From an uncultured Gellertiella sp. (GTDB lineage: Bacteria; Pseudomonadota; Alphaproteobacteria; Rhizobiales; Rhizobiaceae), in the NCBI RefSeq assembly GCF_963457605.1, contig NZ_OY735139.1, positions 248,001 through 312,000 of the forward strand: a stretch of DNA of 64,000 nt, given 5' to 3'. Shown here in pieces: positions 20,351-37,554 of the stretch. The stretch's first letter is position 1. Each line of letters opens with the position of its first letter. A program made the translations under genes and the position numbers. The notes under the pieces are model-generated. The model was not told where the DNA came from, made no database searches, and was given only the letters and a program-made list of their open reading frames with translations.

Positions 20351-20384
20351 CCGGCGATCCCAGCAAATAGAGAGAGGACCTTTG

Positions 20385-20747
20385 ATGTTGAAATTTACCA
20401 GCGAACACGAGTGGCTGAAGATCGAAAACGGCGTGGCCACCGTCGGTATTACCAGACATGCGGCAGAACAGCTGGGCGATCTCGTCTTCGTCGAACTGCC
20501 CGCCCCCGGCAGTGCCTTCGGCAAGGGCGACAATGCGGCAACCGTGGAATCGGTGAAGGCCGCCTCCGAAGTCTATTGCCCGCTCGACGGGGAAATCACC
20601 GAAAGCAATGACGCCATCGTTGCCGATCCCGCGCTGGTCAGCAGCGATCCGGAAGGGTCCGGCTGGTTCTTCAGGCTGAAGCTTGCCAATCCCGCCGATG
20701 CCGAAGGCCTGCTGGATGAGGCCGCCTACAAGGAGTTGATTGCCTGA
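20385..20747 (+). CDS. gcvH: Glycine cleavage system H protein
   Basis: The 120-residue lipoyl carrier that shuttles the aminomethyl group between GcvP, GcvT and the L protein. The lipoylation site is Lys58 in [14 protein letters not shown]. The start at 20385 is preceded by AGAGAGGACC. The stop and the gcvP start share one base (TGATG), so GcvH and GcvP are translationally coupled. Lipoylation requires octanoyl transfer by LipB (5632-6375 in this window) and then LipA. Confidence 0.97.
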
Positions 20748-23611
20748 TGCCCTCTCCCGTCGAATTTTCCTTTACCGATTACAAGCCCTATGATTTCGCC
20801 AACCGGCGGCATATCGGCCCCTCGCCGAGCGAAATGGCGGCGATGCTCGAGGTCGTCGGCTATCCGACGCTCGACGCGATGATCGACGACACGGTTCCGC
20901 CGTCGATCCGCCAGAAGCAGCCGCTGGCATGGGGCGCGCCGATGACCGAGCGCGAGGCGCTCGACCGGCTGCGCGAGATCGCCAACAAGAACCAGAATCT
21001 CGTCTCGCTGATCGGCCAGGGCTATCACGGCACCATCACGCCGCCGGTGATCCAGCGCTGCATTCTGGAAAACCCCGCCTGGTACACCGCCTATACGCCC
21101 TATCAGCCGGAAATCTCGCAAGGCCGGCTGGAAGCGCTGCTGAACTTCCAGACCATGGTCTGCGACCTCACCGGCCTCGACGTCGCCAATGCCTCGCTGC
21201 TCGATGAAGCGACTGCTGCCGCCGAAGCCATGGCGATGGCCGAACGGGTCTCGACATCGAAGGCGAAGGCCTTCTTCGTTGACGAGAATTGCCATGCCCA
21301 GACCATCGCCCTCATCCATACCCGCGCCGAGCCGCTTGGCTGGGAGGTGATCGTCGGCAATCCGCACCGCGATCTCGATCCGGCTGGACTGTTCGGCGCG
21401 ATCTTCCAGTATCCCGGCACCTATGGCCATGCCACGGATTTCACCCGGCAGATCGCCGCCCTGCATGCCACAGGCGCCATCGCCACCGTTGCCGCCGATC
21501 CGCTGGCGCTGGCGCTGCTCAAATCCCCCGGCGACATGGGGGCCGATATCGCCATCGGCTGCACCCAGCGTTTCGGCGTGCCGATGGGCTATGGTGGCCC
21601 GCATGCGGCCTATATGGCGGTCAAGGACGCCTACAAGCGCTCGATGCCCGGGCGTCTGGTCGGTGTTTCCGTCGATGCGCGCGGCAACCGCGCCTATCGC
21701 CTGTCGCTCCAGACCCGCGAACAGCATATCCGCCGCGAAAAGGCGACCTCGAATATCTGCACCGCGCAGGTGCTGCTCGCCGTGATGGCATCGATGTATG
21801 CGGTTTTCCATGGTCCCGAAGGCCTGAAGGCCATCGCCCAGAGTGTGCATCTGAAAGCGGTGCGGTTGGCGATGGGGCTTGAAAAGCTCGGCTACGACGT
21901 CGAGCCGAAGGTGTTCTTCGACACGATCACCGTCAATGTCGGCCGCCTGCAGGGCGCGATCATGAAGGCGGCGGTGGCCGAGGGCGTCAACCTGCGCAAG
22001 ATCGGCCATGACCGGATCGGCATCAGCCTTGACGAACGGTCGCGACCGGCAACGCTGGAGGCGGTGTGGAAGGCCTTCGGCGGCGATTTCCGCATTCGCG
22101 AATTCGAGCCCGTCTATCGCCTCCCCGATACGCTGATGCGCACCAGCCCCTATCTCGAACATCCGATCTTCCACATGAACCGGGCCGAAAGCGAGATGAC
22201 CCGCTATATCCGGCGGCTCTCCGACCGGGATCTGGCGCTCGACCGTTCGATGATCCCGCTCGGCTCCTGCACGATGAAGCTCAACGCCACCGCCGAAATG
22301 CTGCCGATCACCTGGCCGGAATTTGCCGAGATCCATCCCTTCGCGCCGGAAAACCAGGCGCTGGGCTACCGGGAAATGATCGAGGACCTCTCCGCCAAGC
22401 TCTGCGCCGTCACCGGCTATGACGCCTTTTCCATGCAGCCGAATTCCGGGGCGCAAGGCGAATATGCGGGGCTGCTGACGATCCGCAACTACCATATCGC
22501 CCGGGGCGAAGGCCACCGCGACATCTGCCTGATCCCCACCTCCGCCCATGGCACCAACCCGGCCTCCGCCAACATGGCGGGGATGAAGGTGGTGCCGGTC
22601 AAGGCCCGGGAGAATGGCGATATCGACATGGAGGATTTCCGCGCCAAGGCGGAGCAGCATTCGGCCAACCTCTCCTGCTGCATGATCACCTATCCCTCCA
22701 CCCACGGGGTTTTCGAGGAATCGGTGAAGGATGTCTGCGATCTCGTCCATGCCCATGGCGGCCAGGTCTATCTCGACGGGGCCAACATGAATGCCATGGT
22801 TGGCCTGTCCCGCCCCGGTGACATCGGTTCGGATGTCTCGCATCTGAACCTGCACAAGACCTTCTGCATCCCGCATGGCGGCGGCGGTCCCGGCATGGGG
22901 CCGATTGGCGTCAAGGCCCATCTGGCCGCCTATCTGCCCGGCCATCCAGAATGGGCGGCAAAGGACGGTGCTGTCTCGGCAGCCCCCTTCGGCTCCGCCT
23001 CGATCCTGCCGATTTCCTGGAGCTACTGCCTGATGATGGGCGGCGAGGGCCTGACACAGGCAACCAAGGTGGCGATTCTCAACGCCAACTATATCGCCGC
23101 CCGGCTGAAGGGTGCCTATTCCGTGCTCTACACCTCGCGCAGCGGACGCGTGGCGCATGAATGCATCCTCGACACCAGACCCCTCAACGACAGCGCCGGC
23201 GTTTCCGTCGACGATATCGCCAAGCGGCTGATCGACTGCGGCTTCCATGCGCCGACCATGAGCTGGCCGGTGGCGGGAACGCTGATGATCGAGCCGACGG
23301 AATCGGAAACCAAGGCCGAGCTGGACCGGTTCTGCGATGCGATGCTGGCGATCCGCGCGGAAATTCGCGCCATCGAGGAGGGCCGGATGGACAAGGCCAA
23401 CAACCCGCTGAAGAACGCCCCCCATACGGTCGAAGATCTGGTCGGCGACTGGGAGCGGCCCTATTCCCGCGAACAGGCCTGCTTCCCGCCCGGAGCCTTC
23501 CGCGTCGACAAATACTGGCCACCGGTCAACCGCGTCGACAATGTCTATGGCGACCGCCATCTGGTCTGCACCTGCCCGCCGGTCGAAGACTATGCGGAGG
23601 CGGCCGAATAG
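20747..23611 (+). CDS. gcvP: Glycine dehydrogenase (decarboxylating), P protein
   Basis: The PLP-dependent 954-residue P protein decarboxylates glycine and loads the aminomethyl group on GcvH. It is the single-chain form (homologous N and C halves), the usual size. The PLP lysine is Lys704 in [18 protein letters not shown]; the N-terminal half begins [10 protein letters not shown]. The C-terminal half has [24 protein letters not shown]. It is coupled to gcvH by a one-base overlap and closed by a strong terminator 27 bp downstream. No L protein (lpd) gene is present here, as expected since Lpd is shared with other complexes. Confidence 0.97.
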
Positions 23612-23637
23612 GCCGAACAGCGGTGACGCCAGACATC

Positions 23638-23674
23638 GAAAACCGCCGGGACGAAAGACGCCCGGCGGTTTTCT
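23638..23674. terminator. Terminator of the gcvTHP operon, probably bidirectional
   Basis: GAAAACCGCCGGG and CCCGGCGGTTTTC form a perfect 13-bp stem with a 10-nt loop, with a T-run on the plus strand and A-rich symmetry on the other. It lies between convergent gcvP and the LysE-type exporter gene, so it may serve both. Confidence 0.92.
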
Positions 23675-23692
23675 TCTGTTCAGGTTTTCAAA

Positions 23693-24325
23693 TTACCTCT
23701 GCGCTCCCGCAAGGGCCAGCGAGGCGCTGGTCAGCGCGAAAATGCCGAAGGCAATCAGGATCACGCCAGAGACGCGCGACACCCAGAGGGCAAAGCCGGG
23801 GGGAATCCGGTGCTTCAGCACCGTGACCGTGCCGCACAGGAAAAACCACCAGAGCAGCGAGCCGGTAAAGACACCTCCTGTGGTGACCAGCGCCGCAGAC
23901 CCCTGCCGGGCGAGGCCGAGGCCGGCAAAAATCGCGGCGAAGGACAGAATGGTCGCGGGATTGGAAAGCGTCAGCACGAAGGTCGTGGCGGTGACCTTCA
24001 GGAGATCGGTGACACCTGTGTCGGGAGCTGCCGGTTTGGGTTCCGTCCCCGCCCGCAGCGATTGCCAGCCGAGATAGAGCATGAAGGCCCCGCCGATAAT
24101 TCCGAGCGCCATCGACAGGCGGGCAAGCACCGCCGAGAAAACCGCAAATCCCGCCGCCGCCAGCACCGCATAGGCTCCGTCGGCGAGCGCCGTCCCGAGG
24201 CCTCCGGCAACACCCGCCCAAAAGCCGCGCGCCAGCGTCCTGTTGATGCAGAGCGCGCCGATGGGACCGAGCGGTGCGGCAATGGCCAGTCCCAGCACGA
24301 TCCCCTTCAGATAGACAAAGAGCAT
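23693..24325 (-). CDS. LysE-family amino-acid exporter
   Basis: A 210-residue inner-membrane translocator with about six hydrophobic segments. The N-terminus has the LysE-family signature GLAIAAPLGPIGALCINRTL with conserved prolines and glycine; another family feature is FVLTLSNPATILSF. Members export lysine, homoserine, threonine or other small metabolites, and the substrate cannot be told from sequence. The start at 24325 (MLFVYLKG) has CCGGAG upstream; the open frame extends to 24361 without a better site. It is convergent with gcvP and downstream of the small 24400 gene. Confidence 0.85.
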   Translation of the reverse strand: MLFVYLKGIVLGLAIAAPLGPIGALCINRTLARGFWAGVAGGLGTALADGAYAVLAAAGFAVFSAVLARLSMALGIIGGAFMLYLGWQSLRAGTEPKPAAPDTGVTDLLKVTATTFVLTLSNPATILSFAAIFAGLGLARQGSAALVTTGGVFTGSLLWWFFLCGTVTVLKHRIPPGFALWVSRVSGVILIAFGIFALTSASLALAGAQR

Positions 24326-24399
24326 CCCAAGGCTCCGGAGGAAAACACCACGAACCCGCAAAGCTTACCCGGCGCAGCGCGGGGGAACAAGACCGGGGC

Positions 24400-24573
24400 T
24401 TATTTCGACGACTTGAAACCCGAGCGGCGCTTGGCCGGTTTGCCGGTCGCCTCTTCTTCCGGTGCATCGGGATCGAGCGACAGCTGCACGGGATCCGCAG
24501 CCTTGACGGCGGCCTTTTTGGCCGGAGTTTCTGCCGTCGGGGCACTTTCCGGCTTCTGGGTAAATCTGATCAT
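24400..24573 (-). CDS. Small basic hypothetical protein, 57 aa
   Basis: Not recognised as a named family. It is very polar and Ala/Lys/Pro-rich, probably disordered: a short start MIRFTQKPESAP, an alternating A/K tract, an acidic centre (LDPDAPEEEATG) and a basic end (KPAKRRSGFKSSK). The start at 24573 has AAGCAGG upstream. Proteins of this look are common small conserved products in Rhizobiaceae. It lies alone between sufA and the LysE-type gene, about 180 bp beyond the sufA stop. Confidence 0.55.
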   Translation of the reverse strand: MIRFTQKPESAPTAETPAKKAAVKAADPVQLSLDPDAPEEEATGKPAKRRSGFKSSK

Positions 24574-24757
24574 CACATGCCTGCTTTCCAATTGCTGTCG
24601 ACGAGGATCGGCACGCGGCTCCGTCCTCGCCTGAATTATAGGTCGTGAAGATCATCCTACAGCATTTTGAAACGGGCAGGGCCAAATTCGCTGTCCATGC
24701 ACGCTTTCGGCGATCCGCCCGTGAACCGCCCTGGCGGGAATGGTGTTTGCGGCAGTT

Positions 24758-25150
24758 TTACCGGGTCTGGACCACCGCGTCGCCCCGGGCAGCAAGCGCT
24801 GCAAGATCGGCCGGCTTCAGCTCCACCGATTCGCCGCAGCCGCAGGCCGAGGTCTGGTTGGGATTGTGGAAGGTGAAGCCGGAGCGCAGCGTGGTCTGCT
24901 CGAAGCCCATTTCGGTGCCGAGCAGATAGAGAACCGCATGCGGGGCGACCCAGACGCGGGCCCCTTCATGTTCGATCAGGTCGTCCCGGGCATCGGGCTC
25001 GGTCACGAGGTCGATGGTATATTCCATGCCCGCGCAGCCGCCCTTCTTGACGCCAACGCGAATTCCGCGCGCATCCGGGCCGGATTTTTCGACGATGGCC
25101 TTCACCCGTGCGGCGGCGGCATCGTTGATCGTCATGATTGCGTAGCCCAT
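24758..25150 (-). CDS. sufA: A-type Fe-S cluster carrier protein
   Basis: A 130-residue HesB/IscA-family carrier that receives clusters from the SufBCD scaffold and passes them to apoproteins. The three cluster-binding cysteines are present: Cys39 in KKGGCAGMEY, and Cys103 and Cys105 in SACGCGESV. The length is normal. The start at 25150 follows AAGGAACAGG. It is the last gene of the suf operon, about 110 bp after sufT. Confidence 0.93.
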   Translation of the reverse strand: MGYAIMTINDAAAARVKAIVEKSGPDARGIRVGVKKGGCAGMEYTIDLVTEPDARDDLIEHEGARVWVAPHAVLYLLGTEMGFEQTTLRSGFTFHNPNQTSACGCGESVELKPADLAALAARGDAVVQTR

Positions 25151-25258
25151 CGGCCTGTTCCTTTCGTCACCGGAGGAAAGGTCCGGTGCCTCTTGAAGTC
25201 CGTCGCATCATTCTGCGAAACGCTCGTCGCCTGAATGTAAGATCTATCGGTAAAGGCT

Positions 25259-25639
25259 TCAATACCAGCCGACCGCAACCTGCGCCTCTTCCGACATCCG
25301 GTCCGCCGACCAGGGCGGATCGAAGGTAAGCTCGACCGTCACGCCCTGCACGCCCTCGACCGAACTGACGGCATTTTCCACCCAGCCCGGCATCTCGCCC
25401 GCAACCGGGCAGCCCGGAGCGGTCAGCGTCATGATGATCTTCACCATCCTGTCATCCTCGATGTCGATCTTGTAGATCAGTCCAAGCTCGAAGATGTCGG
25501 CGGGGATTTCCGGATCATAGACGGTCTTCAGCGCCGCGATGATGTCGTCGCTGAGGCGCGCGAGTTCTTCCGCCGGTATTGCCGATTGCACCAGTCCTTC
25601 GCGCAGATCGGCCTTCTGGTCGCTTGCAGCTTCACTCAT
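25259..25639 (-). CDS. sufT: SUF-system DUF59/MIP18-family protein
   Basis: A 126-residue protein of the DUF59 group, with the motif TVYDPEIPADIFELGLIYKI and the cysteine in LTAPGCPVAGEMP. SufT-type members act in maturation of Fe-S proteins, apparently helping delivery under high demand; the exact chemistry is unresolved. The start at 25639 has AGGAGATGG upstream. It lies 12 bp after sufS and before sufA, so it belongs to the suf operon. Confidence 0.9.
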   Translation of the reverse strand: MSEAASDQKADLREGLVQSAIPAEELARLSDDIIAALKTVYDPEIPADIFELGLIYKIDIEDDRMVKIIMTLTAPGCPVAGEMPGWVENAVSSVEGVQGVTVELTFDPPWSADRMSEEAQVAVGWY

Positions 25640-25651
25640 TGGGCCATCTCC

Positions 25652-26902
25652 TCAGGCAAAGAATTTACGGGCATATTCAAGTGCCTCCACCAGCACATCC
25701 ACTTCGGCCCGGGTATTGTAGAGGCCGAAGGAGGCGCGGCAGGTGGAGGTGACGCCAAAGCGTTTCAACAGCGGCTGGGCGCAGTGGGTTCCGGCCCGGA
25801 CCGCGACGCCGCGCCGGTCGATGACCATCGACACGTCATGGGCGTGGATCCCGGCAAGCTCGAAGGAAAAGATCCCGCCCTTGTCCGGCGCATTGCCAAA
25901 GATCTTCAGCGAATTGACCGACCTCAGCCGCTCGGCGGCATAGGCCGCCAGATCCGCCTCGTGGGCGGCAATCGCGGCACGGCCGATCTTCTCCATGTAA
26001 TCCAGCGCAAAGCCGAGGCCGATGGCCTGCACGATCGGCGGTGTCCCGGCTTCGAACCGGTGCGGCGGCTCGTTGTAGCTGACGGTCTCTTCCGAGACGT
26101 CGACGATCATCTCGCCGCCGCCCATGAAGGGCCGCATCTCGCGCAGCCGGTCCATCTTGCCATAGAGCACGCCGATGCCGGAGGGGCCGTAAAGCTTGTG
26201 GCCGGTCATCACATACCAGTCGCAGTCGATGTCGCGCACATCGACCGGCATGTGCACCGCCGCCTGGCTGCCATCGACCAGCACCGGAATGCCGCGCTCG
26301 CGGGCGATCCGGCAGACGTCCTTGACCGGAACGATGGTGCCGAGCGCATTCGACATGTGGGTAATGGCGATGAGTTTGGTCTTTTCGGTCAGGCTCGCCT
26401 CGAAGGCCTCGATATGGAAGGCTCCATCATCATCGACCGGCACCCAGACCAGCTTTGCACCCTGCCGCTCGCGGATGAAATGCCAGGGCACGATGTTGGA
26501 ATGGTGCTCCATGATCGTCAGCACGATCTCGTCACCTGCGCCGATCTTCGGCATGCCATGGCCATAGGCGACCGTGTTGATCGCTTCGGTCGAGGACTTG
26601 GTGAAGATGATCTCGTCCACCGACCCGGCATTCAGGAAGCGGCGCACCTTTTCGCGCGCGGCTTCATAGGCATCGGTCGCCGCATTCGACAGGAAATGCA
26701 GGCCGCGATGCACATTGGCATAGCCATTGCTGTAGGTGTCACTGATGGCATCGATCACCACCTGCGGCTTTTGCGCCGAAGCGCCATTGTCGAGATAGAC
26801 CAATGGCTTGCCGTGGACTTCGCGCGACAGGATCGGAAAATCCCGGCGAATGGCCTCGACATCATAGGCGGTGGCAGGGGGGATCTTGTCCATCTCAGCC
26901 AT
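25652..26902 (-). CDS. sufS: SufS-type cysteine desulfurase
   Basis: A PLP enzyme of 416 residues that takes sulfur from cysteine for SufBCD. The class II (SufS) pattern is clear: YLDNGASAQKPQ, the PLP lysine in MTGHKLYGPSGIG (Lys236) and the active-site cysteine in RAGTHCAQPL (Cys374). Start 26902 overlaps the sufD stop by 8 bp with GGAGG just before it; a second ATG at 26893 would be equally in frame. This operon also carries a distinct NifS/IscS-type desulfurase at its head. No sufE or sufU gene is present in the operon. Confidence 0.95.
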   Translation of the reverse strand: MAEMDKIPPATAYDVEAIRRDFPILSREVHGKPLVYLDNGASAQKPQVVIDAISDTYSNGYANVHRGLHFLSNAATDAYEAAREKVRRFLNAGSVDEIIFTKSSTEAINTVAYGHGMPKIGAGDEIVLTIMEHHSNIVPWHFIRERQGAKLVWVPVDDDGAFHIEAFEASLTEKTKLIAITHMSNALGTIVPVKDVCRIARERGIPVLVDGSQAAVHMPVDVRDIDCDWYVMTGHKLYGPSGIGVLYGKMDRLREMRPFMGGGEMIVDVSEETVSYNEPPHRFEAGTPPIVQAIGLGFALDYMEKIGRAAIAAHEADLAAYAAERLRSVNSLKIFGNAPDKGGIFSFELAGIHAHDVSMVIDRRGVAVRAGTHCAQPLLKRFGVTSTCRASFGLYNTRAEVDVLVEALEYARKFFA

Positions 26903-28166
26903 GCGCCTCCAGCCAGTTGGCAATCACCGCTTCCAATGCCTCGACCAGCGCTTCATCCTCGAGTTCCTCGACGATTTCGGCAACGAAGGCGTTGATCAGC
27001 AGGGCACGGGCCTGTTTCTTCGGAATGCCGCGGGCCATCAGGTAATAGAGATGGGTGTGGTCGATATCGGCAACCGTCGCCCCATGGGCACATTGCACGT
27101 CATCGGCAAAGATTTCGAGTTCCGGCTTGACCGAAAACTCCGCATCATCTGACATCAGCAGCGTATTGCAGGCCATCCGCGCATCGGTCTTCTGCGCATC
27201 CGGGGCAACCCGGATCTGGCCCTGGAAAACGCCCCTTGCCCGGTCGAACACCACCGAGCGGATAACCTCGGTCGAGGTCGTGTCCGGCACATTGTGGCCG
27301 AGCGTCATCGTCACATCCGTATGGCTTTCGGCCCCGAGCAGGTTGATGCCGCGCAGCGTGAAATCCGCGCCGCCGCCTGCCGTCGCCACATGCACTTCCT
27401 GGCGAACCAGCTTGCCACCGGCATTGATGAGGAAAAGCCGGAGCTTCGCATCGCCGTTGAGCACCACCTTGATCTGTCCGAGATGGGTATCGGCAACACC
27501 CTGCTGCTGCAGCACGATCCAGGTGACCTCGGCCCCCTCCTCCAGCACCAGATCGGCAACCGAGGACACCAGCGCGGGCGCATCCGTCACCGCCCGGTGA
27601 CGTTCCAGCACCGTCACCTTCGAGCCCGCACCGAAGCGCGCCGGAAAGCGGCTGTGGGACGTGCCTCCGGCCTGATTGGCCTGCAATTCGATGATTCCGG
27701 CAATCTCCGCACCGGCGGGAATGTCAAACCCGTAACCATCGCGGACGAAACTGCCGTTGATCCGGCCGATCGCATCATCGGCCCCCCGGTCGGCGAGACC
27801 CTGGGCAGCACTTCCATTCTGAAGCCCGTCGCCAAAGCGCGACAGGCCGAGATCGGCAGCGTCTGCCGCTCTGTCGGCCATGCCCTGCGACAGGGCGAAG
27901 ACCCGGGACCCCTCGACCAGCGGCGGGCTTGCCGCAGCCTTGGCGGTGACGGCAGCGGGCAGGCCCTTCAGGAGGGTTTTCAGATCCGTATAATGCCAGG
28001 CCTCGATCCGGCGGGTCGGCAGGCCCTCGGCCTTCAGCGCTGAAAGCAGCCGGTCGCGGGCGGCCATCACGGCACCATCACCCGGCAGATCCGACAGCGA
28101 GCTTGTGTAGGCGTCCAGCAACTGCACTTCGGCAGCCGTCTGGCGGTTCAATGTTGCCACGTTCAT
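26895..28166 (-). CDS. sufD: Fe-S cluster assembly scaffold subunit SufD
   Basis: A 423-residue SufBD-family protein; SufD pairs with SufB on the SufC ATPase dimer and helps iron entry and cluster assembly. The beta-helix core is recognisable near the end: VFQGQIRVAPDAQKTDAR, followed by LLMSDDAEFSVKPELEI and ADDVQCAHGATVADID, including the conserved Cys and His. The start at 28166 (MNVATLNRQTAAEV) has AAGGAGCGACG upstream; a longer frame to 28259 overlaps the sufC end and is not typical. It lies 25 bp after sufC and overlaps sufS. Confidence 0.94.
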   Translation of the reverse strand: MNVATLNRQTAAEVQLLDAYTSSLSDLPGDGAVMAARDRLLSALKAEGLPTRRIEAWHYTDLKTLLKGLPAAVTAKAAASPPLVEGSRVFALSQGMADRAADAADLGLSRFGDGLQNGSAAQGLADRGADDAIGRINGSFVRDGYGFDIPAGAEIAGIIELQANQAGGTSHSRFPARFGAGSKVTVLERHRAVTDAPALVSSVADLVLEEGAEVTWIVLQQQGVADTHLGQIKVVLNGDAKLRLFLINAGGKLVRQEVHVATAGGGADFTLRGINLLGAESHTDVTMTLGHNVPDTTSTEVIRSVVFDRARGVFQGQIRVAPDAQKTDARMACNTLLMSDDAEFSVKPELEIFADDVQCAHGATVADIDHTHLYYLMARGIPKKQARALLINAFVAEIVEELEDEALVEALEAVIANWLEAHG

Positions 28167-28191
28167 CGACGTCGCTCCTTGTCCTTGGCGC

Positions 28192-28947
28192 TTAAGCTGC
28201 TGCGCCGATGATGTCGGCATAGCCATTGGCTTCGAGTTCATGCGCCAGCGCCTTGTCACCCGACTTGATCACCTGGCCCTTGTAGAGCACATGCACCGTA
28301 TCCGGCACGATATAGTCGAGCAGGCGCTGGTAATGGGTGATGACGATAACAGCACGATCCGGCGAGCGCAGCGCATTGACCCCGTCGGCGACGATCTTCA
28401 GCGCATCGATGTCGAGGCCGCTGTCGGTTTCGTCAAGCACGCAGAGGCTCGGCTGCAACAGCGCCATCTGCAGGATTTCGGCGCGCTTCTTCTCGCCGCC
28501 GGAAAAGCCGACATTCAGCGGACGCTTCAGCATGGCGGGATCGATCTTCAGCCCGGCTGCTGCTTCCTTGACGCGGCGCATGAAATCCGGCGTCGTCAGT
28601 TCCGACTCGCCGCGCGCCTTGCGCTGCTCGTTCATCGCCACCTTCAGGAACTGCATGGTGGCAACGCCCGGAATTTCCACCGGATACTGGAAGGCAAGGA
28701 AAATGCCCTTCGTCGCCCGCTCGGCAGCGTCGAGTTCCAGAATGCTTTCGCCATTGAACAGGATATCACCGGAGGTGACTTCGTAATCCTCGCGGCCCGA
28801 CAGGATATAGGACAGCGTCGACTTGCCCGACCCGTTCGGCCCCATGATCGCCGCCACTTCCCCCGCCTTCACCACAAGATTCAGGCCCCGGATGATCTCC
28901 GTTTCGGTATCGGCGATCCTGGCATGGAGATTTCTGATTTCTAGCAT
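28192..28947 (-). CDS. sufC: Fe-S cluster assembly ATPase SufC
   Basis: A 251-residue soluble ABC ATPase that drives structural changes in SufBD. Walker A GPNGSGKST (36-44), signature NVGFSGGEKKRAEI, Walker B LCVLDETDSGLD and the H-loop VITHYQRLL are all intact. The start at 28947 has GAAGGAAGATAAC upstream; an upstream in-frame ATG at 28962 lies within that region and is less likely. It begins 16 bp after the TOPRIM-like gene, which separates it from sufB, normally its direct neighbour. Its expression therefore must pass through the inserted pair or start within it. Confidence 0.96.
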   Translation of the reverse strand: MLEIRNLHARIADTETEIIRGLNLVVKAGEVAAIMGPNGSGKSTLSYILSGREDYEVTSGDILFNGESILELDAAERATKGIFLAFQYPVEIPGVATMQFLKVAMNEQRKARGESELTTPDFMRRVKEAAAGLKIDPAMLKRPLNVGFSGGEKKRAEILQMALLQPSLCVLDETDSGLDIDALKIVADGVNALRSPDRAVIVITHYQRLLDYIVPDTVHVLYKGQVIKSGDKALAHELEANGYADIIGAAA

Positions 28948-28963
28948 GTTATCTTCCTTCATA

Positions 28964-29563
28964 TCAGTTCGCTATTTCAGCCAGTCGCCGATAGGCGCGA
29001 CGAAGGCTGTCACTGTTGGAGAGCGCCTCACTCAAATTCCAGCTCTTTTCGACAAAGGAACTGAGACGCTTGTTGTAACCGATCCCAATCGGAGTAAGGC
29101 TGCCTTCCGTGGGCACCAAATCCTCTCGAAGACCACGTTTGGCTCGGCGTGCCAAGTTTACGAGAGTCTGCTTGGGATCTGCTATCGCATCTGGAGATCG
29201 AGGTATTCGCGCATCGCTTACGCCCAAGAAGTTGGCTACTCCGCTCCGGTCTGACAAAATCCAAGCCTCTGCTTCCCTCACAGCCACTCGGAACATCAGT
29301 TTATCGGGTATGCTTTTGCCGTTGAACCATTCCGCCTTGAGCGCAGGTGCACAGGCCACATTGTCCAAATCGGTCAGCAACAACACTGGGTAGCGCGATG
29401 CCAACGTCATAAACTTATCAAGATTCGACCTCAGGTACCCATTCCCGCCTTTACACAGAACTTGAACATGAGTGTTCTTTCCCAGCGTTTCGTGGACAAG
29501 CCTGTAGCCTATTGCTTCGCTCAGCGCATCTTCAACGGCGAGATACAGATTGATGAAGCTCAT
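28964..29563 (-). CDS. TOPRIM-like (DUF4276-like) putative nuclease, partner of the adjacent ATPase
   Basis: A 199-residue protein with a TOPRIM-fold acidic pattern: a glutamate near the first strand (LAVEDALSE, Glu11), a D-x-D pair in VLLLTDLDN (Asp65, Asp67) and an acidic helix REAEAWILSD (Glu97, Glu99, Asp105). In TOPRIM nucleases such residues bind Mg2+. The DUF4276-type order is a good fit; I also considered RloB/AbiLii- and AriB-type partners. It overlaps the ATPase gene by 4 bp (ATGA), so the two form a unit. It lies inside the suf operon, 16 bp before sufC, and does not belong to Fe-S assembly. Base composition is visibly less GC-rich than in the suf genes. A defence role is inferred. 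Confidence 0.72.
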   Translation of the reverse strand: MSFINLYLAVEDALSEAIGYRLVHETLGKNTHVQVLCKGGNGYLRSNLDKFMTLASRYPVLLLTDLDNVACAPALKAEWFNGKSIPDKLMFRVAVREAEAWILSDRSGVANFLGVSDARIPRSPDAIADPKQTLVNLARRAKRGLREDLVPTEGSLTPIGIGYNKRLSSFVEKSWNLSEALSNSDSLRRAYRRLAEIAN

Positions 29564-30741
29564 AGCTCCAGTTCCAGCTGGATTTTTCTACCCGCGATCA
29601 TTTGAGCATTCGGCAAGACCGCCTCAGCGGCCGAAAAACCTGCCTCAATGCCGGCTTTTTCAATCGGGTTCACACCTCTGATCGTCGTACCCTCGCTGGT
29701 CGGATCCAGCACGACAAGTGATCGCGCGTCGATGCCGGCATTGCTAAGCATGGAGCGGCTATGTGTGGTCACAATGACCTGACGCCTGCGGTTTTTTTTG
29801 CGCGTTTGTTGAACGCGGAAGATGAGATACGGCAGCTGCTCTACAATCTCTTCGTTCAGCGACAGCTCCGGCTCTTCCAACAAGAGCAAGGACTCACCAT
29901 CAATCAACAGCCAAAACAACGCGATAAGTCGCAGTGTCCCATCCGAAAACTGATCTTCCAGTTGCCGTGCTCCGTGGGGGCGGTAATGTTCATATCTGAT
30001 CTCAAGATGTGGCCGACCCGTCTCATCGGGTGAAAAAGCCAAATCGTTCAAAGCAGGGACCACCTTCTTGAGCGCCTGCTCAATCCGTTTCAGTCGCGAA
30101 TTGCGTGTCCTTTCGGGCGTTTTGGCAAGTCGCTCCATGAAGGCTTGTCCGAAGGGATCGTTCTCCAGCGTTCTGCCGCCGATAAGATCTCCAAATTTGA
30201 GAAGTTGCGGCACTATATGCAAATATGTTGTGTCGGCGAGAAAGTCTGCAAGCTCCCGAAACTCGCGATTTGCCTGCACTTGCTCAATCGCAGTGGCGGT
30301 AAGTCGCTCAGGATCACTGTCATCTGCCGAGTCGGGTCGGGAAATCGAAAAAACTTCAGTGCCATTCGTGTCGAATTTCCGAACCGCCTCGCGCTTGATC
30401 TGAGGGCGCTGCGCACCCTTTCCCTCGTGGGAGAACTCAAGCAGGTAACTCCAAAGCGGATACGGATCATCGACCGAAGACGAAACTTCGATTTCAATTG
30501 CGACTTCTGAGTGCTGACGCGCATGCAGACATCTCAACTTCTTGATCCCGCCGCGATCAGCTATTGCCTTTTGCAACCCTCCGCCAGCTGGTCTGGCGAC
30601 ATCGCGAAGAAATCGAAAAACGTCGAGAAAATTGGATTTTCCTGATGCATTCACACCGATTATATAAGACATGTCACGCAAATCTGCTTCAGCGCGCTTG
30701 AAGTTTCGCCAATTTGTAAGTTTGACTTTTGTGATAAACAT
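29560..30741 (-). CDS. OLD/RecF-like AAA (AAA_21) ATPase, putative antiphage defence subunit
   Basis: A 393-residue ABC/SMC-type ATPase. Features: the typical start FITKVKLTNWRNFKRAE, Walker A GVNASGKS (29-36), a helical insert, the signature DQFSDGTLRLIAL (about 263-275), Walker B LLLLEEPELS (285-294) and the H-loop VTTHS (324-328). This domain order is that of OLD-family, AriA, AbiLi and GajA ATPases; here the TOPRIM part is on a separate, overlapping gene. The ATG at 30741 has GGGAGGAC upstream and lies 24 bp after the sufB stop. A sampled 60-base stretch (29881-29940) is half G+C, lower than the flanking suf genes. Phage defence is inferred from architecture. Confidence 0.8.
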   Translation of the reverse strand: MFITKVKLTNWRNFKRAEADLRDMSYIIGVNASGKSNFLDVFRFLRDVARPAGGGLQKAIADRGGIKKLRCLHARQHSEVAIEIEVSSSVDDPYPLWSYLLEFSHEGKGAQRPQIKREAVRKFDTNGTEVFSISRPDSADDSDPERLTATAIEQVQANREFRELADFLADTTYLHIVPQLLKFGDLIGGRTLENDPFGQAFMERLAKTPERTRNSRLKRIEQALKKVVPALNDLAFSPDETGRPHLEIRYEHYRPHGARQLEDQFSDGTLRLIALFWLLIDGESLLLLEEPELSLNEEIVEQLPYLIFRVQQTRKKNRRRQVIVTTHSRSMLSNAGIDARSLVVLDPTSEGTTIRGVNPIEKAGIEAGFSAAEAVLPNAQMIAGRKIQLELEL

Positions 30742-30765
30742 GACATGTCCTCCCGGTAGGATAGG

Positions 30766-32235
30766 TTACCCCACCGATCCTTCCAGCGATATGCCGATCA
30801 GCTTTTGGGCTTCGACCGCGAATTCCATCGGCAGTTCCTGAATGACTTCGCGCACGAAGCCGTTGACGATCAGGGCGATGGCGGCCTCTTGCGGGATGCC
30901 GCGCTGCAGGCAGTAGAAGAGCTGGTCTTCCGAGATTTTCGAGGTGGTCGCCTCATGCTCGAACTGGCAGGTCGAATTCTTCGCCTCGATATAGGGCACC
31001 GTATGCGCCCCGCATCTGTCGCCGATCAGCAGGCTGTCGCACTGGGTGAAGTTGCGGGCATTTTCCGCCTTGCGGTGGGCAGAGACCTGGCCGCGATAGG
31101 TATTCTGCGAAACCCCCGCCGAAATCCCCTTGGAGATGATGCGGCTGGAGGTGTTCTTGCCGAGATGGATCATCTTGGTGCCGCTGTCGACCTGCTGGTG
31201 ACCGTTCGACACCGCAATCGAGTAGAACTCGCCGCGCGATCCGTCGCCGCGCAGGATGCAGGACGGATATTTCCAGGTGATCGCCGAGCCGGTTTCCACC
31301 TGCGTCCACGAGATCTTGGAATTCCTTCCCCGGCAATCGCCGCGCTTGGTGACGAAATTGTAGATGCCGCCCTTGCCGTTCTTGTCGCCGGGATACCAGT
31401 TCTGGACGGTCGAATACTTGATTTCGGCATCATCCAGCGCCACCAGTTCGACAACGGCGGCGTGCAGCTGGTTTTCATCGCGCTGCGGCGCGGTGCAGCC
31501 TTCGAGATAGGAGACATAGGCCCCCTCTTCGGCAATGATCAGCGTGCGCTCGAACTGGCCGGTGTTTTTCTCGTTGATGCGGAAATAGGTGGAAAGCTCC
31601 ATCGGGCAGCGCACGCCCTTCGGAATGTAGACGAAGGAGCCGTCGGTAAATACCGCACAGTTCAGCGTCGCATAATAGTTGTCGGTGGTCGGCACGACCG
31701 AGCCCAGATACTGGCGCACGAGGTCGGGATGTTCGCGCACCGCTTCCGAGATCGACATGAAGATCACACCGGCCTTCTTCAGCTCTTCCTTGAAGGTGGT
31801 GACGACAGAGACCGAATCGAACACCGCATCGACGGCGATCTTCGAAGTCTTCACACCCGCCAGCATTTCCTGCTCGCGCAAGGGAATGCCGAGCTTTTCA
31901 TAGACCTTCAGCAGTTCCGGATCGACATCCTCCAGCGAGGTCGGACCTGCCGTGCTCTTCGGCGCGGCATAGTAATAGATGTCGTTGAAGTCGATCTTCG
32001 GATAGTGGACGCGGGCCCAGTCGGGCTCGACCATGGTCAGCCAGCGCTTGTAGGCCTCCAGACGCCATTCCAGCATCCAGTCCGGCTCCTGCTTCTTGGC
32101 GGAGATGAAGCGGATCACATCTTCGTTCAGGCCTTTCGGGGCCTTGTCGACTTCGATTTCCGTCTCGAAACCGTATTTGTACTGGTCCACATCGATCTGG
32201 CGGACCTGATCGATGGTTTCCTGAACCGCAGCCAT
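30766..32235 (-). CDS. sufB: Fe-S cluster assembly scaffold subunit SufB
   Basis: A 489-residue SufBD-family scaffold on which clusters are built. Clear family stretches: [20 protein letters not shown] near the C-terminus, [32 protein letters not shown], and [16 protein letters not shown] with the assembly Cys and Glu. The start at 32235 is preceded by TTGGAGAACG. It lies about 140 bp after the upstream desulfurase gene and is followed, unusually, by the ATPase/TOPRIM pair before sufC. Confidence 0.96.
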
Positions 32236-32377
32236 TTTCGTTCTCCAATCTCGCCGGGTCCAAGGCCCGGCAGCTTGTCAACGGGACGGTGTTACCGCCC
32301 TCATCTAGTTCTGCAAAAGAGAGTTTTCACCCCTTTTGTCCAGTTAAAATTTGCATTTCCGCAATTTTCCCGGCAGG

Positions 32378-33544
32378 TCAGGCCGCACTCGCCGCCTTCC
32401 GCCTCCCGGCAATCCGCCCGAAGGCCTGAAGCGCCCGGTCGATGTCGGCTGCGGTGGTCGAAGGGCCTGTCGACAGCCGGAGCGCCCCGAGTTTCGGGTC
32501 CAGTCCCATCGCCGACAGAACATGGCTCTCCCCGACCCGTCCGGACGAACAGGCGGCCCCCGCCGACAGCGCTATACCTTCGAGATCGAAGGCGATCTGT
32601 CCCGTTTCCGACTTCAGCCCCGGCAGGGTGAAAAACGAGGTATTGGCCACCCGCCCGACCTCGGCGCCGTGGATGATCACATCGGATGCCCGCTGCCGCA
32701 TGCCGCTCTCAAGCCGGTCGCGCAAAAGCGCGATGTCGAGGTTGCGGCGGTCCATCCCTTCTGCCGCAGCCCAGGCGGCGGCACCGAAACCGACGATCGA
32801 CATCAGGTTTTCCGTACCCGAGCGGTGGCCCCGCTCCTGCCCGCCGCCACGGATCAGCGGCGCGGGCATCAGGGTTTCGCCCTTCACCACCAGCGCACCC
32901 GCTCCGCGGGGGCCACCGATCTTGTGGGAGGAGATGATCAGGAAATCGGCCTCTGCCGCATGACGGGCGAGATCGATGCGGCCAGCGGCCTGCACCGCGT
33001 CGACTACAAGCAGGCCGCCATGCGCCTTGACGATATCCGATACCGCTGCAACCGGCTGGATGATGCCGGTCTCGTTGTTGACCAGCATCACCGCCACCAT
33101 CGGCAGGCCATGAGAAGATGCATCGTGATTCGAAAGCTGCTGCGTCAGCGCGGCCAGATCGATCAGCCCGGAGGAAAGCACCGGCACTTCGCTCACCCGG
33201 TCCTTCGAAAAACGCCCGCCCTCGCGGATTGCCGGATGCTCGATGGCCGAGACATAGAGATGTCCGAGGGCAAGCGGTGCGCGACCCATGCGGAAATCCG
33301 GCGTCAGCACCAGATTGGCGGCTTCCGTCGCGCCGCTGGTAAAGATCACATGGGCGGGATCACGGCCACACAGCACCCCCACCTGCCGCCGTGCACCCTC
33401 GAGAGCGGCCTTGGCGATGCGGCCTTCGCCATGCACTGAAGAGGGATTACCGGCCATGTCGAGAACCCGCAGCACGGCCTCGCGCGCTTCGGGACAAAGC
33501 GGTGCCGTGGCATTCCAGTCGAGATAGAGACGAGAAGCGGTCAT
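32378..33544 (-). CDS. NifS/IscS-type cysteine desulfurase
   Basis: A 388-residue class I PLP desulfurase heading the suf operon. It has YLDWNATAPLCPEAREAV, the PLP lysine in IISSHKIGGPRGAG and the catalytic cysteine in SAGAACSSGRVGESHVL; this long flexible cysteine loop distinguishes it from the SufS enzyme encoded downstream. Rhizobial suf operons commonly begin with such a gene. It may supply sulfur for SufBCD or for tRNA thiolation; sequence alone does not decide. A candidate Irr-binding site lies 110-126 bp upstream of its start. About 140 bp separates it from sufB. Confidence 0.92.
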   Translation of the reverse strand: MTASRLYLDWNATAPLCPEAREAVLRVLDMAGNPSSVHGEGRIAKAALEGARRQVGVLCGRDPAHVIFTSGATEAANLVLTPDFRMGRAPLALGHLYVSAIEHPAIREGGRFSKDRVSEVPVLSSGLIDLAALTQQLSNHDASSHGLPMVAVMLVNNETGIIQPVAAVSDIVKAHGGLLVVDAVQAAGRIDLARHAAEADFLIISSHKIGGPRGAGALVVKGETLMPAPLIRGGGQERGHRSGTENLMSIVGFGAAAWAAAEGMDRRNLDIALLRDRLESGMRQRASDVIIHGAEVGRVANTSFFTLPGLKSETGQIAFDLEGIALSAGAACSSGRVGESHVLSAMGLDPKLGALRLSTGPSTTAADIDRALQAFGRIAGRRKAASAA

Positions 33545-33653
33545 CGATCCGGTTCAGTTCACCCTGCAAATCAGCAGATGGTTCATTTTTCTTGAATTTG
33601 CCGTCTGGCTTGCCTTAAGACACAGTCACACGAACGTGCGACAGCACAGTCAG

Positions 33654-33670
33654 TTTTTAATGGTTCTAAA
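33654..33670 (-). promoter_or_regulatory. Candidate Irr iron-control element (ICE) upstream of the suf operon
   Basis: TTTTTAA-TGG-TTCTAAA matches the ICE consensus TTTAGAA-NNN-TTCTAAA at 12 of 14 defined positions, with a perfect right half. Irr, a haem-responsive Fur-family regulator of rhizobia, binds such sites. It lies between the divergent desulfurase (start 33544) and hydrolase (33761) genes. Iron-responsive control of suf is known in rhizobia, which supports the call. Confidence 0.6.
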
Positions 33671-33760
33671 CTGCGTTTTAAAAAACATGACAGTCTGAGT
33701 CAAGTCAACTCGGATGTCTGAATGCGCAATTGGGACCGGAAACCGAAGACCGGAGTACCG

Positions 33761-34438
33761 ATGCCTGAAGTGATTTTCAACGGCCCCGCGGGTCGCCTTG
33801 AAGGAAGATACCAGCCCTCGAAGGAAAAGAGCGCACCGATCGCCATCATCCTGCATCCGCACCCGCAGTTCGGCGGCACGATGAACAACCAGATCGTCTA
33901 TCAGCTGTTCTATCTGTTCCAGAAGCGCGGCTTCACGACGCTGCGCTTCAACTTCCGCAGCATCGGCCGCAGCCAGGGTGAATTCGACCATGGCGCGGGC
34001 GAACTCTCCGACGCCGCCTCGGCGCTCGACTGGGTGCAGAGCCTGCATCCCGACAGCAAGAGCTGCTGGGTGGCCGGTTACTCCTTCGGCGCCTGGATCG
34101 GCATGCAGCTGCTGATGCGCCGCCCGGAAATCGAAGGCTTCATCTCGGTTGCGCCGCAGCCCAATACCTACGATTTCTCCTTCCTCGCCCCCTGCCCCTC
34201 CTCCGGCCTGATCATCCATGGCGACCAGGACAAGGTCGCGCCGGAAAAGGATGTCAATGTGCTGGTCGACAAACTGAAGAGCCAGAAGGGCATTCTCATC
34301 ACCCACAAGACGCTGCCCGGTGCCAACCACTTCTTCTCCGGCCAGATCGACACGCTGACCGCCGAATGCGAAGACTATGTCGACCGCCGCATGGTCGGCG
34401 AACTCACCCCCGAACCGGCTGCCAAGCGCATCCGGTAA
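33761..34438 (+). CDS. Alpha/beta hydrolase
   Basis: A 225-residue small alpha/beta hydrolase. It starts MPEVIFNGPAGRLEGRYQP and has the oxyanion segment ILHPHPQFGGTMNNQ, a nucleophile elbow GYSFGAWIG (Ser about residue 110), an acid in IIHGDQDKVAP and the catalytic His in LPGANHFFSG. This is the group of COG2945-type hydrolases widespread in alphaproteobacteria; the substrate is unknown. The start at 33761 has CGGAGTACC upstream; an in-frame ATG at 33722 lacks a site. It is divergent from the suf operon and shares the intergenic region with the ICE-like element. Confidence 0.85.
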   Translation: MPEVIFNGPAGRLEGRYQPSKEKSAPIAIILHPHPQFGGTMNNQIVYQLFYLFQKRGFTTLRFNFRSIGRSQGEFDHGAGELSDAASALDWVQSLHPDSKSCWVAGYSFGAWIGMQLLMRRPEIEGFISVAPQPNTYDFSFLAPCPSSGLIIHGDQDKVAPEKDVNVLVDKLKSQKGILITHKTLPGANHFFSGQIDTLTAECEDYVDRRMVGELTPEPAAKRIR

Positions 34439-34559
34439 AAGCCGGGTATTCGGGCCTCCACGCCTGTGGGCCGGGGTTTACCCCCTGGCCAGCAGTTCAT
34501 GGCTGGCTTGCCGGAGGGGCAGGCCAAACGGGAAAACGTTGCCAGGCTCGTCCGGCGGT

Positions 34560-35708
34560 TCAATCCACCGCCGCCGCCAGCACTCCACCGCTGACCGCCT
34601 CGCGCACGCCGGTGGTACCGGGAAAGGTCAGTGGCAGGCCCTTCAGCGACCGCACCGCCAGATAGGCCCAGGCCTCCGCCTCCATCGCATCGCCGTCAAG
34701 ACCGGCCTGTTCGGCGGACAGGACCGCGCTGCCGCGCAGAGCTGCAAGGTCGGCCAGATCCTTCATGATCACCGCATTCAGCCGACCGCCGCCTGAAATC
34801 ACGAAGCTTGCCGGAAATTCCGGCAGATGTCCCGCCGATGTCAGGATCGCCGCGGCGGCGACATGGGCGAGCGAACGGGCACCGTCGGCAAGCTCCACCT
34901 CACCCGGGGCGGGCGGGCGAAAATCGTTGCGGTCCAGCGAACGGCGCTGGTCGCCCGAAAAAAACGGGTGGTCGAGATAGCGCGCCACGAGATCGCCGAT
35001 CACTCTGCCTTCGCTGGCAATCGCACCACCGGCGTCGAAGGGAATGCCCGCCTCGCCCTCGACCCACTGGTCGATCAGCGTATTGCCCGGGCCGCTGTCA
35101 AAGGCGCGGATCGTGCCATCCGGCAGGATCGCGGTGATGTTGGAGATGCCGCCGATATTGACGAAACAGATCGCCTCGCCCGGCTTGCGGACACCATCCG
35201 CCAGCGCCGCGTGATAGGCGGGGATCAGCGGCGCACCCTGCCCGCCATGCCGCATGTCGTTGGCCCGCATGTCATGGACTGTCTGAATGCCGGTTTCACA
35301 CGCCAACAGTGGGCCATCGCCGAGCTGCACCGTCAGCCCCTGGCCGGGCCGGTGCAAGACCGTCTGGCCGTGAAAGCCGATGACATCGATATTGTCGCGC
35401 GACAGCCGGTTCTTGGTCAGAAATTCCGTTACGGCAATCACATGCCGTAACGTCAGCTCCCGCTCCACCCCGGCGAGGCAGCCGATCCGCTGTTCGCGCG
35501 ATGCCAGACCTTTGGCATCCTCCAGCGCCTGCTTCAGCCGCTCTCGAAACGGCGCATCATAGGCAAGCCCGAGAAACGGGCCGCGCTCCACCACACGCTC
35601 GCCATCGGTGCGCAGCAATGCCACATCGATGCCATCCATGGATGTGCCGCTCATCAGCCCGATGGCGGTGAAGATTCCGTCCTGCAACCTCGTGTCCTCC
35701 CGCTGCAA
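34560..35708 (-). CDS. anmK: Anhydro-N-acetylmuramic acid kinase
   Basis: Cleaves and phosphorylates 1,6-anhydroMurNAc from recycled peptidoglycan to MurNAc-6-phosphate. The 382-residue protein has the family N-terminus [30 protein letters not shown], the phosphate motif [22 protein letters not shown] and [11 protein letters not shown]. The length is usual. The stop at 34560 is convergent with the upstream hydrolase gene. No murQ gene is visible, so the second recycling step must be encoded elsewhere. A canonical housekeeping gene. Confidence 0.95.
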
Positions 35709-35817
35709 GCCTGACTCGAAAAGCTGGCAGAAGGGATATCAGAGATTTTCCGTTTCGCCATGAAGACAGGCCGAAATTGCGTCCGCCCGTCTCGCAGGTG
35801 AAACCAGCCGAACGTCG

Positions 35818-35997
35818 CTAGCTGCCCGTGGCCGTCTGCAGCGATGTGGCAAGCGTGTTGAATGTCGTGCCGATCTGACCGCCCAGGGCAGTCGCGCCGG
35901 CAATCAGGGCCACCGAAACAAGCGCTGCAATCAAACCGTATTCGATGGCAGTTGCGCCCGCTTCATCCTCGATGAAACGCTTGAAAAGTCTTGCCAC
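35818..35997 (-). CDS. Flp/Fap-type pilin
   Basis: A short gene with a GTG start at 35997 (ribosome binding site AAGGGGAA). The 59-residue product starts MARLFKRFIEDEAG|ATAIEYGLIAALV: a basic leader, a prepilin-peptidase site after Gly14 and the Flp motif with Glu5 and Tyr6 of the mature protein, then one hydrophobic helix and a small polar tail. Flp pilins form the tad adhesive pilus exported by a type IVb system. No cpa/tad genes are next to it, so it is an orphan pilin in this window. A hairpin in its leader (36030-36048, CCCC-G-GACA/TGTC-GGGG) and AT-rich DNA further upstream probably hold its promoter. Confidence 0.88.
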   Translation of the reverse strand: MARLFKRFIEDEAGATAIEYGLIAALVSVALIAGATALGGQIGTTFNTLATSLQTATGS

Positions 35998-36242
35998 CCC
36001 GGTTCCCCTTTATGATCCGTCACCCCGAACCCCGGACATGTGTCGGGGCTTCAATAAGAATAATAGAATATAATTTATCATTTATAAAATACAGACTATG
36101 ACTAATCGCCAGTGACTGAGGGCGCGTCCGGCCCTCCCGCCTCTCATTCATCTCAAGGAAATACCGCTTCACACTTTTCCTGGAATTGCTTAAGAGCCCT
36201 CGATACAACACGATCCGCAGCCGGTTAGCAGAGAAACAGCTC

Positions 36243-37496
36243 ATGTCCGCGTTCAAATCCGATTTCCTTCGCACGCTTTCCGAGCGGGGCTTCATTCATC
36301 AGGTCTCCGATGAAACGGGCCTTGATGCCCTTCTGCAGAAGGAAACGGTCAGCGCCTATATCGGCTTTGATCCGACCGCGCCGTCGCTGCATGCGGGGTC
36401 TCTCATCCAGATCATGATGCTGCACTGGTTCCAGGCGACCGGCCACAGGGCGATTTCGCTGATGGGCGGTGGCACCGGCATGGTCGGCGACCCCTCCTTC
36501 AAGGAAGAATCCCGCCAGCTGATGACCGTCGACACCATCGAGGACAATATTGCCTCGATCAAGCGGGTGTTTTCCAATTACCTGACCTATGGCGACGGCC
36601 CCGCCGACGCGCTGATGATCAACAATGCCGACTGGCTGCGCCAAATCAACTATCTCGAATTCCTGCGCGATGTCGGGCGGCATTTTTCGGTCAACCGGAT
36701 GCTGTCCTTCGACAGCGTCAAGACCCGGCTTGACCGCGAGCAGTCGCTGTCCTTCCTCGAATTCAACTACATGATCCTGCAGGCCTATGACTTTACCGAA
36801 CTGGCGCGGCGCTACGATTGCCGCCTGCAGATGGGCGGGTCCGACCAGTGGGGCAACATCGTCAACGGCATCGATCTCGGTCACCGGATGGGGACAAAGC
36901 AGCTCTATGCGCTGACCTCGCCGCTTTTGACCACCTCCTCGGGGGCCAAGATGGGCAAATCCGCCAATGGCGCGATCTGGCTCAATGCCGACATGCTGTC
37001 GGCCTATGATTTCTGGCAATACTGGCGCAACACCGAGGATGCGGATGTCGCGCGCTTCCTGAAGCTCTACACGACCCTGCCGATGGACGAGATCGCCCGG
37101 CTGTCGCAGCTCGGCGGGGCCGAGATCAACGAGGTCAAGAAGATCCTCGCCACCGAGGTCACCGCCATCCTCCACGGTCGCACGGCTGCCGAACAGGCCG
37201 CAGAGACCGCGCGCAAGACCTTCGAGGAAGGCGCGCTTGCCGCCGATCTCCCTTCGATCGACATTGCCGCCGGCGAGCTTGAGGCCGGGATCGGCATTCT
37301 CGCCCTCTTCGTCAAGGCTGGCCTTGCCGACTCCAACGGCGAGGCCCGCCGTCACGTCAAGGGCGGCGCGGTGAAGGTGAATGACAAGCCGGTCAGCGAT
37401 GACCGCCAGATGGTCGGCACGGCGGATGTCACCGCCGATGGCGTCATCAAGCTGTCGCTCGGCAAGAAGAAGCACATGCTGGTGCGTCCCGCCTGA
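36243..37496 (+). CDS. tyrS: Tyrosyl-tRNA synthetase
   Basis: A 417-residue class Ic aminoacyl-tRNA synthetase. The HIGH motif is present as PSLHAGS and the KMSKS motif as AKMGKSANG; tyrosine-binding stretches [18 protein letters not shown] and [10 protein letters not shown] are intact. A C-terminal S4 RNA-binding domain follows ([14 protein letters not shown]). The start at 36243 ([17 protein letters not shown]) is the family N-terminus; an ATG at 36186 would add a spurious leader. A strong terminator follows the gene. Confidence 0.97.
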
Positions 37497-37527
37497 GCCG
37501 CGATCCGATCAGACCAAAGTCTGTTTG

Positions 37528-37554
37528 AAGGCCGGGCATTGCCCCGGCCTTTTT
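37528..37554. terminator. Rho-independent terminator of tyrS
   Basis: AAGGCCGGG-CATTGC-CCCGGCCTTTTT: a 9-bp GC-rich stem followed by five Ts. It also overlaps the 3' end of the convergent DUF3971 gene by two bases, so it may act in both directions. Confidence 0.92.

Follow-up and report, generated by a model that had tools for sequence, protein, structure and literature searches.

Searches for anti-phage defence systems usually turn to defence islands, prophages and plasmids. Two described arrangements of an ATPase with a TOPRIM-type enzyme bear on the locus considered here. PARIS has AriB, described as a TOPRIM ribonuclease that uses two metals and cleaves tRNA-Lys (PMC12409363), and in OLD and GajA the ATPase and the TOPRIM domain are described as parts of one chain (PMC10568477). 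Closer still are the Hma-embedded candidates, abbreviated HEC (PMC10855318; PMC12988326), several of which, including HEC-06, are reported to have antiviral activity (PMC12988326). HEC-01 goes back to the preprint of Payne et al. 2024, as cited in PMC12629846 and PMC12255303, and a paper on gut Desulfovibrio counts it among the predicted systems (PMC12724379).

Insertions into the suf operon also have precedents. In Muricauda olearia, momL, which encodes an AHL lactonase, lies between sufB and sufC and is reported to be co-transcribed with suf (PMC5484670), and in Caulobacter a small ORF for a putative ADP-ribosylglycohydrolase occupies the same junction and is reported to belong to the isc-suf operon (PMC11475020). 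Open-licence papers yielded no report of this junction as a general slot; one may exist elsewhere. While HEC-01 and single sufB-sufC insertions are known, what is new here is the junction as a recurrent cargo slot.

The locus lies in a 64,000-nucleotide stretch of a Gellertiella contig (the window), where, at 28964-30741 on the minus strand, genes for an ABC-type ATPase (393 aa) and a TOPRIM-like protein (199 aa) stand between sufB and sufC (Table 1). The reading that we consider likely is that a candidate anti-phage module, HEC-01, landed without a promoter in a variable sufB-sufC cargo slot, where it would be read from the suf promoter and would serve defence. The HEC-01 identity of the pair, its deviant composition, its absence from the congeners searched, and the slot and its turnover are established below.

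An HEC-01 pair in the suf operon

Both genes match models of PADLOC-DB 2.0.0 over nearly their full length, the ATPase matching HEC-01A (PDLC04180) with E 6.7e-139 over residues 1-381 and the 199-aa protein HEC-01B (PDLC04194) with E 1.6e-62. The Pfam matches of the ATPase (AAA_21, E 6.2e-29; AAA_15, E 3e-16) are far weaker, and the profile search placed the two proteins in HEC-01 and in no housekeeping family. By these matches the pair is HEC-01, an already catalogued family of defence candidates. The first-pass annotation had thus been right to see a two-gene unit of ATPase and putative nuclease with a defence connection; its suggestion that the system might be undescribed is ruled out, because both genes match HEC-01 in PADLOC. 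A weak match of HEC-01B to DUF4276 (E 0.0013) fell below the cut-off, and membership in that family was rejected.

The window pair resembles PARIS in that an ABC ATPase and a separate putative nuclease are encoded by adjacent genes, as are AriA and AriB, and the ATPase profile reaches AriA chains (E 3.6e-5), with the AriA model itself matching at E 4.9e-25. The HEC-01 models nevertheless score far above AriA for this ATPase, and no AriB model was among the 13 families listed for HEC-01B, so that AriA and AriB are not the best matches of the pair. The N-terminus of the ATPase also aligns with GajA (E 8.9e-9). Where OLD and GajA are described with ATPase and TOPRIM in one chain (PMC10568477), the window has two separate ORFs, which sets it outside OLD/Gabija. 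With its HEC-01 relatives the pair shares both the A and the B model. Those relatives are found embedded in Hma and adjoining restriction-modification (R-M) genes, whereas the window copy is embedded in an iron-sulphur operon, and the immune operons associated with the relatives are not found here. Like momL and the Caulobacter ORF, both reported in the suf transcription unit, the pair is non-suf cargo at the sufB-sufC junction; those were described as single cases, with cargo other than HEC-01.

The motifs that had been claimed for the ATPase (GVNASGKS, FSDGT, LLEEPELS and TTHS) are all present in the 393-aa ORF, and profile searches of solved chains place its RecF/Rad50-like core with the OLD/GajA/AriA kind. 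In an alignment of 39 rows the invariant residues of HEC-01B include E11, D12, D65, D67, E99, W101, D105 and K131, and this pattern of a Glu, a D-x-D and a further acidic motif with a Lys is one that we take to be the TOPRIM nuclease motif. The TOPRIM-like pattern noted at first reading therefore stands as regards the conserved Glu, D-x-D, E-x-E and Lys; from these residues we infer that HEC-01B is a TOPRIM-type nuclease. Comparison of HEC-01B with OLD TOPRIM domains by hhalign aligned only 23 columns, at the D-x-D, with a probability of 14%; the OLD-like_TOPRIM profile has no match in this genome, and the best solved chain for HEC-01B is unrelated-looking (E 0.74).

Table 1. The suf operon of the window and the pair within it
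Feature	Coordinates	Strand	Basis
Cysteine desulfurase gene, upstream of sufB	32378..33544	-	ORF, named from own sequence
sufB	30766..32235	-	ORF; PF01458 E 1e-79
Spacer sufB to HEC-01A, 24 bp, with ribosome-binding-like GGGAGGA	30742..30765	-	sequence
HEC-01A, OLD/RecF/AriA-type ABC ATPase, 393 aa	29560..30741	-	PADLOC PDLC04180 and Pfam
HEC-01B, putative TOPRIM-type nuclease, 199 aa	28964..29563	-	PADLOC PDLC04194
Spacer HEC-01B to sufC, 16 bp, with GAAGGAAG	28948..28963	-	sequence
sufC, 251 aa counted from ATG 28947	28192..28947	-	ORF
sufD, start at the MNVATLN methionine, by inspection	26895..28166	-	ORF; PF01458 E 3.2e-70
sufS-type cysteine desulfurase	25652..26923	-	ORF, named from own sequence

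Gene order and spacing are as first described, with the pair 24 bp after sufB and 16 bp before sufC and its reading frames overlapping by 4 bp (ATGA). The GAAGGAAG in the second spacer is probably the ribosome-binding site of sufC, a gene with 92-93% identity to those of three congeners and with an alternative in-frame ATG at 28962; the longest ORF for sufD starts at 28259. The SUFBD_core profile has two matches in the genome, sufB and sufD. As had also been claimed, the pair is less GC-rich than the suf genes, at 0.519 for the insert against 0.599 for the flanking suf DNA (the last 290 bases of sufB and the first 750 of sufC). A scan of 28000-34000 for sigma-70-like promoters found none, a weak result in that shuffles average 1.8; Rfam found no RNA families in 20000-40000, and a search for transposon-like ends found no flanking repeats of at least 12 nt around the insert.

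The pair would lack a promoter of its own and be transcribed from that of suf, with ribosome-binding sites at its genes, an expectation that follows from the spacing, the common strand and the two published cases in Muricauda and Caulobacter. By analogy with PARIS, the ATPase may sense a cue of infection and hold or activate its TOPRIM-like partner, which would cut nucleic acid (tRNA or DNA) so that phage growth stops, as with AriA and AriB; infection would then end in growth arrest.

The sufB-sufC junction as a cargo slot

None of the three congeners with resolved sufB-sufC junctions has an empty one, and each is filled with other cargo: G002 (locus L008) carries a GIY-YIG gene, and G003 and G004 (L006 and L007) an MNT (NTP_transf_2) and HEPN pair, the MNT gene of L007 overlapping the sufB stop by one base. 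A search of four congeners for HEC-01A at E 1e-10, one of them (G001) only 77% complete and without a sufC match at the limit used, found none. HEC-01 is therefore not at this junction in all relatives. Together with the deviant composition and the profile searches, this disposes of the three observations that the first-pass annotation had named as speaking against its reading, namely presence in all relatives, host-like composition and a housekeeping family.

What that annotation had missed, in seeing HEC-01 at the junction, is that sufB-sufC receives cargo recurrently. Among 184 such junctions sampled in the order, 68 have gaps of 300 bp or more, and the cargo consists of unrelated cassettes of one or a few genes. 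The family sample (144 junctions: L003, L006, L007, L008 and 140 fetched loci, the latter a non-random set from the best ~150 SufB rows of a 394-genome search) has gaps from 26 to 1818 bp, with at least 150 bp in 80, at least 300 in 56 and at least 500 in 35. The sample from the rest of the order (40 loci, hand-picked at one or two per family) has 12 gaps of at least 300 bp. In the 180 loci that could be followed through the whole operon (L003, L101, L248 and L251 having no usable sufD or sufS), gaps of this size occur at sufB-sufC in 66, at sufC-sufD in none and at sufD-sufS in 12. The last is a second, less used variable gap, seen in L047, L062, L075, L083, L092, L138 and others.

The cargo recognised at sufB-sufC in the family includes GIY-YIG (13 loci), a coiled-coil family (8), ABM (7), MNT with HEPN (6), DoxX (4), cupin (3), GFA (2), HEC-01 (1) and small membrane proteins, with MNT-HEPN and cupin appearing again outside the family in L267 and L260, respectively. 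Much of it (DoxX, GFA, ABM, cupin and the small membrane proteins) does not look like defence. Seven of ten chosen suf-strand cargo ORFs match Pfam. Because these representatives had been chosen among suf-strand ORFs, an opposite-strand control was added, in which none of the ten longest opposite-strand gap ORFs (of 32 with at least 90 aa) matched Pfam at 0.01. A PADLOC scan of ten cargo proteins (nine of those scanned with Pfam and one other) gave a single match, of MNT to PDC-S09 (E 3.5e-10).

Some smaller features of these gaps may be recorded. The cargo of L083 is a 237-aa protein after sufB with no Pfam or PADLOC match. The gaps of L008, L075, L082, L084, L093 and L151 often hold palindromes, GTCATCC..CGGGC..GAGGAT or ..AATGACGA; a GIY-YIG gene is present in all of these loci except L151, as if a REP-like element and the gene had travelled together. 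L265 and L282, with gaps of 441 and 612 bp, have a cargo protein in common (FRPVG..FPPRLPEQPIFYPV..), which we take to be that annotated as 'ADP-ribosylation/crystallin J1'.

On a FastTree tree of suf genes (183 rows, L101 being dropped; 138 with sufC and sufD, 45 with sufC alone), the label for gaps of 300 bp or more requires at least 41 changes, as compared with 49 to 62 for shuffled labels (30 shuffles). GIY-YIG (13 rows) requires 13 changes, cupin (4 rows) 4, and MNT-HEPN (7 rows, in two families of the order) 4. By these counts, the slot changes its contents nearly as though host descent had no bearing on them. So quick a turnover speaks against the idea that residence in suf prevents easy loss.

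The sufB 3' ends of the two MNT-HEPN congeners, L006 and L007, are nearer to L074 (88%) than to the other congeners. At the start of sufC, L006 is nearest to L008, a congener, and L007 is about equally near L067 and L008. The sufB end is different again in the MNT-HEPN loci found in other genera. These resemblances are suggestive at most of cargo having moved together with the end of sufB.

Such a slot may exist because a spacer is tolerated between sufB and sufC but not between sufC and sufD, and recombination in the conserved sequence of sufB and sufC on either side could swap cassettes. It is quite possible, if somewhat less than an even bet, that nothing is recruited here at all, and that a junction free of translational coupling simply lets same-strand insertions survive, neutral or short-lived, with no gain from suf regulation. 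The functional mixture of the cargo, the rapid turnover, and the contrast between sufC-sufD, which never opens in 180 loci, and sufD-sufS, which opens in 12, are all as expected of a merely tolerant gap. What such a gap explains less well is that some cargo families recur on distant branches, as the change counts for MNT-HEPN, cupin and GIY-YIG attest, and that three genera, from two families, have HEC-01 before sufC (see below). We put forward only tentatively, and with more doubt than conviction, the broader proposal that sufB-sufC is an order-wide slot, repeatedly refilled by unrelated cassettes, defence and toxin-antitoxin modules among them, and that the immunity of HEC-01 and MNT-HEPN is thereby controlled by iron and Fe-S stress, which infection or reactive oxygen may itself bring about.

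Were a recurrent slot in a housekeeping operon borne out, it would amount to an overlooked reservoir of defence systems. Reading one junction across genomes would then yield candidate cassettes for immunity, toxin-antitoxin and accessory functions, for which an iron-responsive promoter may already be in place; 'guilt by embedding' would be extended from immune operons to housekeeping ones, and a tie between immunity and Fe-S status would become testable.

Relatives of HEC-01 and their neighbourhoods

Two further loci have HEC-01 before sufC. In L152, a contig of a Mesorhizobium MAG that corresponds to G361/L009, the pair directly precedes sufC; the contig starts 14 bp before HEC-01A, placing the region of sufB outside it. 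In L211, from a Methylobacteriaceae MAG, the order is sufB, cupin, a CaMKII_AD protein, HEC-01A, HEC-01B and sufC. On a tree of 71 HEC-01 rows (leaving out the duplicates L004 and L009, rows without B, L011 with its too short A, and rows with a stop in the B translation at the extended start), these group with the window copy in a single starred clade, which has five rows, all alphaproteobacterial, and the slot label requires 2 changes, a count as low being reached in 19 of 500 shuffles. Such clustering would be expected had a single entry of HEC-01 into the slot, in an early alphaproteobacterium, been followed by inheritance and then loss almost everywhere, a history we nevertheless think unlikely. 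Homologues of HEC-01A are rare. With the genome of the window included in every count, they occur in 5 of 394 genomes of the family at E 1e-40 (one has an internal stop), in 6 of 397 order-sample genomes at E 1e-60 and, at the strict limit of E 1e-100, in 1 of 385 class-sample genomes. Only G000 and G361, of ten genomes with a homologue, have HEC-01 at suf. L188 and L196, in the same clade, have no suf gene in their loci, L196 ending soon after HEC-01B, and the GC content of the insert deviates from that of its surroundings.

A scan of genome contigs confirmed at least 513 relatives, the best 80 of which, named here, span several phyla at 47-61% identity. Among these best 80 of at least 513, the B homologue directly follows A in 78 loci (in the exceptions, the B match of L200 has E 0.05 and L220 has none), and, with neighbours read by inspection, 11 have type III R-M-type genes around or next to them and 2 are enclosed in Hma. 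Eight of these 13 were checked with PADLOC or Pfam: PADLOC finds a type III methylase upstream of HEC-01 in L155 and L156, and places HEC-01 between HmaA and HmaB in L185 and between HmaB and HmaC in L222, while Pfam finds ResIII downstream in L155 and L227 and N6_N4_Mtase upstream in L201, L216 and L178. At 1e-20, PADLOC has no match for the proteins encoded downstream in L155, L156 and L227. The six loci L155, L156, L178, L201, L216 and L227 show a recurrent embedding outside Hma, HEC-01 being next to, or enclosed by, the methylase and ResIII-type genes of a single type III-like R-M family.

Housekeeping neighbours are seen in other loci, eight of them checked by Pfam: glutamyl/glutaminyl-tRNA synthetase and flavin reductase (L158), a HemN-type protein (L160), semialdehyde dehydrogenase (L163), a ribosome-binding GTPase (L165), RNase E/G (L175), riboflavin enzymes (L182), a POR-family oxidoreductase with a FolD-type protein (L209) and an ABC ATPase (L218). 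The upstream gene is co-directional at 61 of 75 HEC-01 loci, the figure for ordinary gene pairs being 197 of 298; if it must also lie within 100 bp, the figures are 34 of 75 and 106 of 298. Both sides are so arranged at 15 of 68. These counts, from a rough gene caller (cross-validated at 94%), give no clear sign that the family is tied to operons more than ordinary genes are.

At E 1e-30 no plasmid matches HEC-01A, although relaxing the limit to 1e-5 brings in 3 remote matches from Streptomyces, and phage records give none at 1e-15; six viral contigs carry relatives, four of them at 43% identity or more. This near-absence from plasmids and phages is unusual for a mobile defence system. It could be accounted for, at the limits used, if the pair were instead an Fe-S or DNA-repair accessory working with SUF, as its place inside the suf operon and its RecF/Rad50-like ATPase core might also suggest. 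We regard this as very improbable: of the 80 named loci (best 80 of at least 513, some of them short), only 2 were seen to have a suf gene, and relatives of the pair lie within Hma or adjoin R-M genes. In one locus, L011 (G074), HEC-01A has a stop inside and a transposase-like gene follows close behind, perhaps a copy in decay.
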